The translations under genes were made by a program, and so were the position numbers. A stretch of 32,610 nucleotides of DNA from Prevotella sp. GTDB taxonomy: Bacteria > Bacteroidota > Bacteroidia > Bacteroidales > Bacteroidaceae. Shown in pieces: positions 8,528 to 11,962 of this stretch (positions are counted from its first letter, which is position 1; every line of letters begins with the position of its first letter). The notes under the pieces are model-generated. The model was not told the origin of the DNA and ran no database searches. It was given only the letters and a program-made list of their open reading frames with translations. The stretch is from NCBI GenBank assembly GCA_017477435.1, contig JAFUVV010000022.1, forward strand, positions 1 to 32,610, read 5' to 3'.

Positions 8528-9886
8528 TTACACCTCGGGAACAGACTCGAGGTTTTTCTTTATGTCGTCGTCGGTAATCTTGTAGTTCATAAGGTCGCCG
8601 TTGAGATACTGCTCGTAGGCACTCATGTCGATGAGTCCGTGGCCGGAGAGGTTGAAGAGTATCACCTTCTCCTCGCCTGTCTCCTTGCATTTCAGTGCTT
8701 CGCGGATGGTAGCGGCGATGGCGTGTGAAGATTCTGGAGCGGGAATGATGCCCTCAGTACGGGCAAAGAGGAGTCCGGCCTCGAAGGTCTCGAGCTGAGG
8801 AATATCGACACCATGCATGAGACCATCCTTTATCAACTGGCTGACAATCATGCCTGCACCATGATATCTCAGGCCGCCGGCGTGGATGTTGGCAGGCTTG
8901 AAGGCATGGCCGAGAGTGTACATCGGCAGCAGAGGAGTGTAGCCAGCCTCGTCGCCGAAGTCGTAGCGGAACTCGCCACGGGTGAGCTTAGGACAACTCT
9001 CGGGCTCGGCAGCGATAAACTCCGTAGTCTTGCCGTCGAGGATATTATGCCGCATGAACGGGAATGCGATGCCGCCGAAGTTGCTGCCGCCACCGAAGCA
9101 TGCAATGACAACATCGGGATATTCGCCGGCCTTCTGCATCTGCTTCTCGGCCTCGAGACCGATGATCGACTGATGGATAGCCACGTGGTTGAGCACCGAG
9201 CCGAGGGTGTACTTACAGTTTGGAGTAGTCGTGGCCAGTTCGACAGCCTCGCTGATGGCAGTTCCGAGCGAACCGGGATGGCGAGGGTCGCGAGTGATGA
9301 TGTCCTTACCGGCACGTGTCGACATCGACGGCGATCCCGTCACGGCAGCGCCGAAGGTGCGCATGATGCTGGAGCGGTACGGCTTCTGCTGCATGGAAAT
9401 CTTCACCTGATAGACAGCAGCCTCAAGTCCGAACACCGATGCAGCATAGCTGAGCGCTGCACCCCACTGTCCGGCACCTGTCTCGGTAGTCACGTTCGTC
9501 GTGCCTTCCTCCTTGGCATAGTAGCACTGCGGCAGCGCGGAGTTGATTTTATGAGAGCCCAGCGGATTCACGCTCTCGTTCTTGAAATAGATATGGGCAG
9601 GAGTGCCGAGCGCCTCCTCGAGGGCATAGGCCCGCACGAGAGGAGTAGAACGATAGTACCTGTACTTCTCGAGCACTGGCTCGGGGATGTCAATGAACGG
9701 ATGCTCCTGGTCGAGCTCCTGCACGCAGCATTCGCGTGGGAATATGTGTGCAAGGTCGTCAACACCCAGCGGCTGCTTTGTGGCCGGGTGGATAGGCGGC
9801 AGAGGCTTGTTGGGCATATCGGCCTGAATGTTATACCACTGCTTAGGCAATTCACTCTCTTCGAGCATAAATTTCTTCTGTTTCAT
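8528..9886 (-). CDS. trpB: Tryptophan synthase beta chain, long (TrpB2-like) form
   Basis: A PLP enzyme that makes tryptophan from indole and serine. The PLP lysine is K113 in NPLGSHKINSALPQ. The TETGAGQWG segment and the phosphate-binding FGGGSNFGG loop are present. At 452 residues, with an extended N-terminus and the FPRECCVQELD region, it fits the TrpB2 group rather than the roughly 400-residue TrpB1. No trpA or other trp gene is adjacent, so it is a single-gene unit with its own promoter and terminator. TrpB2 proteins in other organisms are usually thought to salvage indole or act without tight TrpA binding. The upstream leader with three Trp codons and alternative hairpins argues that expression responds to charged tRNA-Trp, supporting a genuine tryptophan-supply role. 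Confidence 0.95.
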   Translation of the reverse strand: MKQKKFMLEESELPKQWYNIQADMPNKPLPPIHPATKQPLGVDDLAHIFPRECCVQELDQEHPFIDIPEPVLEKYRYYRSTPLVRAYALEEALGTPAHIYFKNESVNPLGSHKINSALPQCYYAKEEGTTNVTTETGAGQWGAALSYAASVFGLEAAVYQVKISMQQKPYRSSIMRTFGAAVTGSPSMSTRAGKDIITRDPRHPGSLGTAISEAVELATTTPNCKYTLGSVLNHVAIHQSIIGLEAEKQMQKAGEYPDVVIACFGGGSNFGGIAFPFMRHNILDGKTTEFIAAEPESCPKLTRGEFRYDFGDEAGYTPLLPMYTLGHAFKPANIHAGGLRYHGAGMIVSQLIKDGLMHGVDIPQLETFEAGLLFARTEGIIPAPESSHAIAATIREALKCKETGEEKVILFNLSGHGLIDMSAYEQYLNGDLMNYKITDDDIKKNLESVPEV

Positions 9887-9930
9887 AATTGTGTTGCTTT
9901 TAAGATGAATAATATGTTTTTAAAATTTTT

Positions 9931-10003
9931 ACCTTTTACCTTTTTCCTTTTTTACCTTTTTACTTTTTACCTTTTAACCTTTAACCTTTTAACTCTTTAA
10001 CCT
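9931..10003 (-). repeat. Purine-rich (AAAAGGT)n tract in the trpB 5' leader
   Basis: On the minus strand, about eight irregular copies of A(3-6)GGT(A/T) lie between the attenuator terminator and the trpB start. The tract is unlikely to fold. It could be a ribosome-accessible leader or simply low-complexity repeat DNA. No function is demonstrated by sequence alone. Confidence 0.6.
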
Positions 10004-10033
10004 AAAAAAGGTCTGCCGCAAGCGCGACAGACC
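10004..10033 (-). terminator. Attenuator terminator in the trpB leader
   Basis: Minus-strand RNA: GGUCUGUCGC (10033-10024), loop GCUU, GCGGCAGACC (10019-10010). This makes ten consecutive pairs with one U-G wobble, followed directly by six U (10009-10004). It lies inside the trpB transcript, about 117 nt before the start codon, so it must be bypassed for trpB expression. Confidence 0.92.
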
Positions 10034-10105
10034 TTTTTGTGTATTTCGATTTCATTCATCTACACGGCTGAGCGACTCACGACTTTTTGAATCTTGAGCT
10101 ACGCC
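10028..10105 (-). promoter_or_regulatory. Alternative protector and antiterminator pairings
   Basis: Region 1 (GGCGUAGC, 10105-10098), which includes part of the third Trp codon, can pair with region 2 (GCUCAGCC, 10073-10066) by three plus three base pairs around an internal loop. Region 2 can instead use CAGCC (10070-10066) to pair with GGUCUG (10033-10028, one bulged U), which is the 5' arm of the terminator. An inner helix GUGUA (10065-10061) / UACAC (10043-10039) supports this second structure. The two foldings exclude one another, as in classical attenuation. Base pairing was worked out by eye. Confidence 0.7.
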
Positions 10106-10136
10106 ACCACCAATTGTTAGATCTGAATGTCATCAT
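10077..10136 (-). CDS. Tryptophan leader peptide of the trpB attenuator
   Basis: A 19-codon reading frame, MMTFRSNNWWWRSSRFKKS, ends at TGA (10079-10077). The three consecutive TGG codons are at 10112-10104. Trp is normally the rarest residue, so three in a row in a tiny frame that starts about 22 nt after the predicted transcript start and precedes a terminator and a tryptophan synthase gene is very unlikely to be chance. A ribosome stalled at these codons for lack of charged tRNA-Trp would cover region 1 and let the antiterminator form. Either of the two adjacent ATG codons could be the start. No Shine-Dalgarno site is seen, as is usual in this phylum. Confidence 0.85.
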   Translation of the reverse strand: MMTFRSNNWWWRSSRFKKS

Positions 10137-10163
10137 TTTGCTTGATTATTTATATTCACGCTG

Positions 10164-10195
10164 CAAATGTATGCAGAATGTTTCAAACATGCAAA
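10164..10195 (-). promoter_or_regulatory. trpB (attenuator) promoter
   Basis: Minus strand: TTTG (10195-10192), a 20-bp spacer, TACATTTG (10171-10164), a full match to the Bacteroidota consensus. Transcription should begin near 10158, giving a leader of about 270 nt before trpB. Confidence 0.85.
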
Positions 10196-11188: not shown

Positions 11189-11962
11189 TTATCGTCTTTT
11201 GAGGTATTTCCTCACCTTGGCAGGGTTGTCGGTGTTGATGAAGTCGAGTCGCAGGTGTTTTGCCAGTTGCCAAGCCTTCGGGGAGTCGGGCATTGCCCAG
11301 AATCGAATCTTCTTCCCCATGCGGTGGACATCGCGTGCGGCAGTGCGAAGACTGTCGATTTCGGCTTTCGTCAGGTCGCGCTCACCATCCCAGCTGAAGA
11401 ATTTCCTTAGGTCCTGACTAATCACCGACACATGCTTCAACTGTTGCTGAGTATAGGTGCGCCCTACCCTGCCGTCGTGCTTGATGAAGTCGGGATAGTC
11501 GGCAAAATGCTCTGCTGGAATCAAGTCGCCCGACACCGTAAGCGTTATGGCACGGGGATTATGCTCCGTATCGAAGCACTCGGCATACTCCTCTTCAATC
11601 ATACGCTGCAAGGCGAGCAGCGATTCGCGACCGTCTTTCAAGTCGACAATCAATTGGTATGTGCTTCCATCGGCATAGCCTGCACCGCCATTGGAACGAA
11701 ACAGATGACGGATGGGATCGAGATAGAGATTTCGGAGCGTGCGCCATGAACGGATATCCTCGCGGTCGTGCGCCACATAGAGTTCTCCATCAACGAGAAA
11801 CACATCGGCTTCGATGCTCGCGGCATGTGCCTTATACGCATCGAAGAAAGGATGCTCGCGATCGTAGTCGTTGTGGGAGTGTATGCCAATGTGTCTGGCA
11901 TCTGCCGGCAGACATACTGTCAGTAGCATGCCAAACAAAATGGTAATGACTCGATTATGCAT
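11189..11962 (-). CDS. Exported PLC/GDPD-like phosphodiesterase
   Basis: A 257-residue protein with an N-terminal signal peptide (hydrophobic ITILFGMLLTVCLPA). It has the TIM-barrel phosphodiesterase motifs: GIHSHNDY (27-33), SIEADVFLVDGELYVAHD (catalytic-type E51, D53 and H65), then LIVDLKDG. The HSHNDY opening and the weak PLC-like signature match the group often annotated as PI-PLC/glycerophosphodiester phosphodiesterase, related to yeast Aim6. Substrate unknown; a phosphodiester of a lipid or polyol headgroup is likely. It begins 12 bp after the fumarase stop codon, so it is probably co-transcribed with it. No metabolic link between the two is obvious. Confidence 0.85.
   Translation of the reverse strand: MHNRVITILFGMLLTVCLPADARHIGIHSHNDYDREHPFFDAYKAHAASIEADVFLVDGELYVAHDREDIRSWRTLRNLYLDPIRHLFRSNGGAGYADGSTYQLIVDLKDGRESLLALQRMIEEEYAECFDTEHNPRAITLTVSGDLIPAEHFADYPDFIKHDGRVGRTYTQQQLKHVSVISQDLRKFFSWDGERDLTKAEIDSLRTAARDVHRMGKKIRFWAMPDSPKAWQLAKHLRLDFINTDNPAKVRKYLKRR

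Follow-up and report, generated by a model that had tools for sequence, protein, structure and literature searches.

A tryptophan-peptide leader related to Bacteroid-trp RNAs precedes a stand-alone trpB2 in Prevotella

Introduction

The locus described here raises the question of why a stand-alone trpB2 should be preceded by what reads as a complete tryptophan attenuator, and of how such a leader relates to those already described for trp operons. Within the window (the whole 32,610-nt stretch of Prevotella DNA that was analysed), the minus strand carries, 5' to 3', a promoter, an open reading frame with Trp codons, a protector, an antiterminator and a terminator, followed by trpB2. For Bacteroidetes, Trp-peptide leaders in front of trp genes are on record, as attested by the Rfam family RF01692 (Bacteroid-trp, 'Bacteroidete tryptophan peptide leader RNA'), by Table 1 of PMC2864571 (Weinberg 2010), where Bacteroid-trp is listed as cis-regulatory in Bacteroidetes, and by a passage of PMC6414381; the kind of element is thus not new. 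With a probability of roughly 90%, we hold that the stand-alone trpB2 of the window is controlled by a tryptophan attenuator of the ribosome-mediated type, and that this element is a homolog of the Bacteroid-trp leaders that precede trp operons in Bacteroidetes.

Results

Anatomy of the leader and its target

The target gene, trpB2 (8528 to 9886, minus strand), encodes a 452-aa tryptophan synthase beta-like PLP enzyme according to NCBIfam profiles, scoring 688.7 bits with NF009057 (cut-off 366) and 588 bits with TIGR01415 (cut-off 518.85), and falling under the cut-off of the trpB1 profile TIGR00263 (150.1 bits against 392.45). Upstream on the same strand, a -33 element TTTG (10192 to 10195) and, 20 nt from it, a -7 element TACATTTG (10164 to 10171) that fits TAnnTTTG can be read in the sequence as a Bacteroidetes-type promoter, of which we take TTTG / TAnnTTTG to be the consensus; transcription would start near 10158. 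A -7 box of the form TAnn(n)TTTG occurs 20-110 nt 5' of the Trp run in all 76 leaders that we collected (39 before operons, 37 before trpB2), as against 7.5 of 76 expected from a mononucleotide shuffle. A generic sigma-70 and terminator scan of the minus strand reported neither the promoter nor the terminator.

The leader peptide MMTFRSNNWWWRSSRFKKS is encoded at 10077 to 10136 (minus strand) by 19 codons followed by TGA, with an alternative ATG at 10133, and includes three consecutive Trp codons at 10104 to 10112. This run is the single occurrence of WWW across all six frames of the window. At least two Trp lie within the first three codons in 76 of 76 leaders, and three in 65, counts to be read with the caveat that the model and the pattern used to find the leaders themselves contain Trp codons. 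Between the terminator and trpB2, the gap is filled by A/T-rich imperfect tandem repeats with units of about 7-8, 15 and 23 bases (9918 to 10003, minus strand), to which no function is assigned.

Two further open frames in the window may be recorded. One of 395 codons lies antisense to trpB2 and the spacer (8813 to 10000, plus strand) and is probably mechanical. The other, of 257 aa (11189 to 11962, minus strand), sits between a class I fumarase gene and the gene of a DUF3298 protein, and has no Pfam or NCBIfam match at E <= 0.001.

Competing folds

The stretch from 10155 to 10004 folds at -50.5 kcal/mol (z -5.7), and none of 200 shuffles folds equally low. In the free leader, a protector (regions 1:2; 10066 to 10111, minus strand) is predicted with pairs 10111-10109/10068-10066, 10105-10102/10074-10071, 10099-10095/10079-10075 and 10093-10090/10084-10081, and protector cells are paired at 92.1% and 95.0% across 40 trpB2 leaders (alignment A1, below). 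Bases 10111-10109 and 10105-10104 of the Trp run pair with region 2, which by predicted pairing places the regulatory codons inside region 1. When the transcript is ended at the terminator loop and the first 15 nt from the Trp run are masked, the minimum-energy fold of this part transcript is an antiterminator (regions 2:3; 10028 to 10070, minus strand) in which 10070-10066 pair with 10033-10028, with one bulge, and 10065-10061 with 10043-10039. The intrinsic terminator hairpin (regions 3:4) with its U run occupies 10004 to 10038 (minus strand), the stem spanning 10038-10005 and the U run 10009-10004, and of the six U's, five are also paired with A's. The terminator is the minimum-energy structure of all full-length folds printed, whether stalled (masked) or not; the choice between folds would therefore have to be kinetic, made during transcription.

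Much of the original prediction survives this analysis. The promoter, the 19-codon frame with its three Trp codons, the terminator and trpB downstream are all present in the sequence, and the antiterminator proposed between 10070-10061 and 10043-10028 is reproduced as the masked minimum-energy fold. A protector exists as well, but the register given for it (10105-10098 with 10073-10066) was partly wrong and the predicted pairing is more extensive; the terminator stem, described as perfect, contains one U.G pair. The two foldings that had been expected to compete do share one arm in silico, with the antiterminator winning in the half-made transcript only.

We extended the folding to all 40 trpB2 leaders and measured, in the half-made transcript, what share of the terminator 5' arm is taken up by region 2. 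This share has a mean of 0.24 in the free leader and 0.36 with a ribosome at the stop codon, compared with 0.67 and 0.63 for a ribosome stalled at the first and third Trp codon, respectively, and 0.34 when spacers are shuffled under the first-Trp mask. The first-Trp stall exceeds the free value in 40 of 40 leaders, the shuffles in 39 and the at-stop value in 34, leaving six in which the stalled value is not above the at-stop value. For the window leader the corresponding shares are 0.20 (free), 0.80 and 0.63 (stalled) and 0.54 (at stop), so that the crude ribosome footprint separates the stalled and at-stop states poorly there.

We infer a mechanism of the following form. With charged tRNA-Trp plentiful, the ribosome would reach the stop codon and leave region 2 covered or engaged in the protector, in which case the terminator would form and transcription would stop near 10004. 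With charged tRNA-Trp scarce, the ribosome would stall at the Trp codons, themselves part of region 1, and region 2 would be able to pair with the terminator 5' arm before the 3' arm is made; the antiterminator once formed, RNA polymerase would continue into trpB2. Such a model requires coupling of transcription and translation over the leader.

Conservation among trpB2 leaders

Alignment A1 comprises 40 trpB2 leaders, the window's included, collected with a pattern that required Trp codons and a GTCGT motif and trimmed to the best downstream hairpin, so that conservation of the Trp codons, GTCGT and the hairpin is partly ascertained; the selection made no use of promoter, downstream gene or protector pairs. 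Over protector and terminator together, 95.3% of 1200 cells are paired, versus 34.0-45.4% when the alignment is slid, and 47 cells carry changes on both sides versus 13.9 in shuffles. Eight pairs show double changes, which is unremarkable (37 of 500 shuffles reach as many), and so is the pair-type count (equalled in 23 of 500). Seven of the eight belong to the terminator, in which 96.3% of cells are paired and 7 of 15 pairs changed on both sides; the only one in the protector, pair 17:36, is C-G in 36 leaders and U-A in the four sequences of a single genus group (g24). The expectation of conserved Trp codons, covarying stems and otherwise variable sequence is accordingly borne out across the 40 leaders in the terminator and, less strongly, in the protector, the Trp codons having been required by the collection; these covariation counts cover protector and terminator, and support for the antiterminator comes from the folding test.

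Of the 76 leaders, 66 have a block that fits GTCGT(G/A)G strictly. In 17 of these 66 the peptide's stop codon already begins upstream of the block, indicating that the block is conserved as RNA and not as peptide. This bears on a different reading, in which the nascent peptide senses free tryptophan, as in TnaC-like arrest, and the peptide itself, not stalling at Trp codons, sets the fold. A peptide tail RSSRxKKS is indeed conserved in many trpB2 leaders, as such a sensor might lead one to expect, but in the leaders printed the tail varies both in sequence and in length (6 to 14 codons from first Trp codon to stop), the block outlives the reading frame in the 17 leaders just mentioned, and the tail codons build the protector stem, which can explain their conservation. 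We therefore regard peptide sensing as very improbable, and stalling on Trp codons as the better account.

Relationship to the Bacteroid-trp family

RF01692 matches the window leader from 10156 to 10026, over model positions 1-131, end to end. The match scores 43.2 bits (E 7.3e-4) against a curated cut-off of 49, placing the leader below the family's membership threshold, and stops inside the terminator. At the gathering threshold Rfam gave no match in the window for any RNA family, the T-box among them, and RF01692 is visible by E-value only; in the window's assembly, the leader is its sole match at E <= 10. Among 14 control genomes, RF01692 has matches in seven at E <= 10 (one of them above cut-off) and in one at E <= 0.01, so weak matches alone would not count.

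Across 295 genomes sampled from the order, RF01692 matched in 43 at E <= 0.01 and in 15 above cut-off. Thirty loci from this sample and from the window's assembly were read by script: 16 have a leader followed by a TrpB1-like open reading frame, one is the window, one is a spurious match (L160), one has a leader with no open reading frame in reach (L154), and 11 were missed by the script pattern. RF01692 was absent at the Rfam gathering threshold from 12 loci, eight of them with a trpB2 leader. When 16 loci (nine operon, seven trpB2) were rescanned with this family, five matched at E <= 0.5, and the cut-off was passed by two of the nine operon leaders (L296 at 59.1 and L289 at 56.4 bits) and by none of the seven trpB2 leaders. 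In one locus (L026), two stretches (1337-1428 and 2829-2912), one of them just 3' of the leader, gave sub-cut-off matches to unrelated microRNA and plastid RNA models, and are probably hairpin-forming repeats.

The connection to accepted members is clearer from the other direction. Run against 150 congeneric genomes, model R1, which was built from A1 and hence with the window in it, detects the element in 112 of them at E <= 0.01; 108 remain at E <= 1e-6. The top score (104.3 bits) is that of the window itself, and many of the weak matches are reflections of the hairpin from the opposite strand. R1 scores 100.2 and 85.6 bits on the operon leaders L289 and L296, and 66.5 and 65.6 bits on L147 and L151, which belong to other genus groups and stem from matches above the RF01692 cut-off; through these four scores the window leader is tied to accepted members of the family, and it has in common with them a leader frame with a run of Trp codons 5' of a tryptophan gene. 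From 95 R1 matches we removed 17 weak ones, namely L325 and second matches on the opposite strand, as well as two duplicates (L033, L324), which left the 76 leaders used above. The open reading frame that follows the 39 operon leaders resembles, by its N-terminus, TrpD in 26, TrpB1 in 12 and TrpF in one, calls checked by NCBIfam for one TrpD and one TrpB1. Judged by sequence, the window element is a homolog of RF01692 under its cut-off and not an accepted member.

These searches also bear on two kinds of control in which no translating ribosome takes part, one by an RNA-binding protein of the TRAP type and the other by a T-box. We found nothing that speaks for either. Neither kind of system requires an open reading frame whose Trp codons form region 1, and the best match of the leader is to a peptide leader family, with no T-box or other RNA family at cut-off. 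We consider control of this sort extremely improbable here, and return to the ribosome-mediated attenuator.

Distribution and evolution

Within the genus, 119 genomes have trpB2, and in the 109 of these examined the leader precedes it in five and was not seen in the other 104. Among the 80 nearest TrpB2 homologs, mostly labelled Prevotella, Prevotellaceae or Bacteroidales, the leader reaches at least 50 bits in 40 and is partial in one (L090, below); three of the 80 (L042, L060, L098) have less than 250 nt of upstream sequence. Among 30 loci of the family, the leader was found at 50 bits in all four of g24 and in none of the 26 others. At one locus within the leader-bearing clade (L090, 2386-2470), a partial leader of 40.4 bits lies before trpB2, and is perhaps a decaying attenuator.

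Such patchiness could be read to mean that the element terminates constitutively or serves as a 5' UTR, in either case unresponsive to tryptophan, its Trp codons being relics of an operon leader, and both the 104 genomes with no trpB2 leader seen and the partial leader fit that idea. The Trp codons and protector are kept, however, in 40 leaders spanning more than one genus group, shuffling the spacers yields less antiterminator pairing in 39 of the 40, and operon genes are preceded by the same element; retention of Trp codons, protector and antiterminator together is not expected of a relic. An element devoid of tryptophan response is thus a very unlikely reading, and we continue with a working attenuator.

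A quick TrpB2 tree was made of 137 proteins, with truncated ones and L112-L114 left out and with L042, L060, L090 and L098 carrying no leader state. A clade of 31 leader-bearing and three unscored sequences, the window among them, is supported at 99 (SH-aLRT) and retains the leader. Over the whole tree, presence or absence of the leader switches at least 10 times, and the poorly supported leader tree calls for at least 6 switches between operon and trpB2 targets. A single origin of the trpB2 leader was weighed against these counts, in which gains, losses and transfers are indistinguishable. As far as these trees reflect its history, the leader is repeatedly gained, lost or replaced.

Operon and trpB2 leaders coexist in three genomes (G440, G506, G460), where the identity between the trpB2 leader and the genome's own operon leader is 0.80, 0.67 and 0.76. 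A recent copy of the operon leader within the genome is unsupported, since the own operon leader is the closest leader overall in none of the three. In G440 it is the nearest of the operon leaders, and in G460 the nearest leader of all is an operon leader of another genome.

Pathway context

The trp genes were scored in 39 of the 40 leader-bearing homolog genomes (L034 left out): trpB1 is over its family cut-off in nine, trpA in 11 and trpC in the same 11. Neither trpA nor trpC was found in 28 of the 39, a share concentrated in related genomes, mostly metagenome assemblies, and involving at least 6 state changes on the TrpB2 tree. In the window's assembly, which is only 78% complete, trpA, trpB1 and trpC were not found. 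Together with the known chemistry of TrpB enzymes, these absences lead us to infer indole salvage, the making of tryptophan from indole, as a role of trpB2.

A link between the trpB2 leader and loss of the trp operon was considered for the genus sample and dropped: three leader-bearing genomes have trpA and two do not, as against 79 with and 25 without among the leader-less, which shows no association (Fisher p = 0.60). In two genomes (G832 with L035, G836 with L039), trpA and trpC are present and trpB1 was not found, for which contig breaks may be responsible; trpB2 might serve the pathway there.

Discussion

The attenuator before trpB2 is real and well conserved, a divergent relative of a described leader placed on an unusual target. 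It is this target, a lone trpB2 in place of the usual trp operon, that is distinctive, and at the level of titles and abstract openings, with supplements and most subscription papers outside the search, we found no literature on an attenuator in front of trpB2. The described Bacteroidetes leader is hereby extended to a new target and to sequences below the Rfam cut-off. This suggests that some relatives of Prevotella set the synthesis of tryptophan from indole by the speed of translation. It might well be, and might equally well not be, that the trp-operon attenuator of Bacteroidales is a portable cassette, put before unlinked trpB2 genes several times independently, by which indole salvage answers to the charging of tRNA-Trp, and which would be the last trp control where the pathway has been lost. 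Genomes with both an operon leader and a trpB2 leader (the three named above) allow a comparison of the two, which can be seen as natural variants of a single attenuator.

In the trp attenuator of Escherichia coli (trpL), Trp codons lie in region 1, and the regions combine as protector 1:2, antiterminator 2:3 and terminator 3:4. The leader described here follows the same logic of regions, the comparison being confined to logic, but precedes a single gene where trpL precedes a whole trp operon. With RF01692 the likeness extends to the sequence, in that the Trp-codon frame, the TCGU-AG block, the antiterminator region and the start of the terminator all align, and both are found in Bacteroidetes, 5' of trp genes; the difference lies in the score (43.2 bits against a cut-off of 49), in a match that ends inside the terminator, and in a lone trpB2 where RF01692 precedes an operon beginning with trpB1 or trpD. 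The nearest comparison within the phylum is with Flavobacterium psychrophilum, for which a passage of PMC6414381 describes a Bacteroid-Trp RNA that resembles the leader of E. coli and is conserved 5' of the trp operon, and passages of PMC9723704 report strong clues of leader-peptide attenuation 5' of amino-acid operons; in these passages, too, the attenuation mechanism is inferred. Those leaders, as there described, share with ours the phylum and a place before amino-acid biosynthesis genes, whereas their target is an operon and the target here is a lone trpB2.
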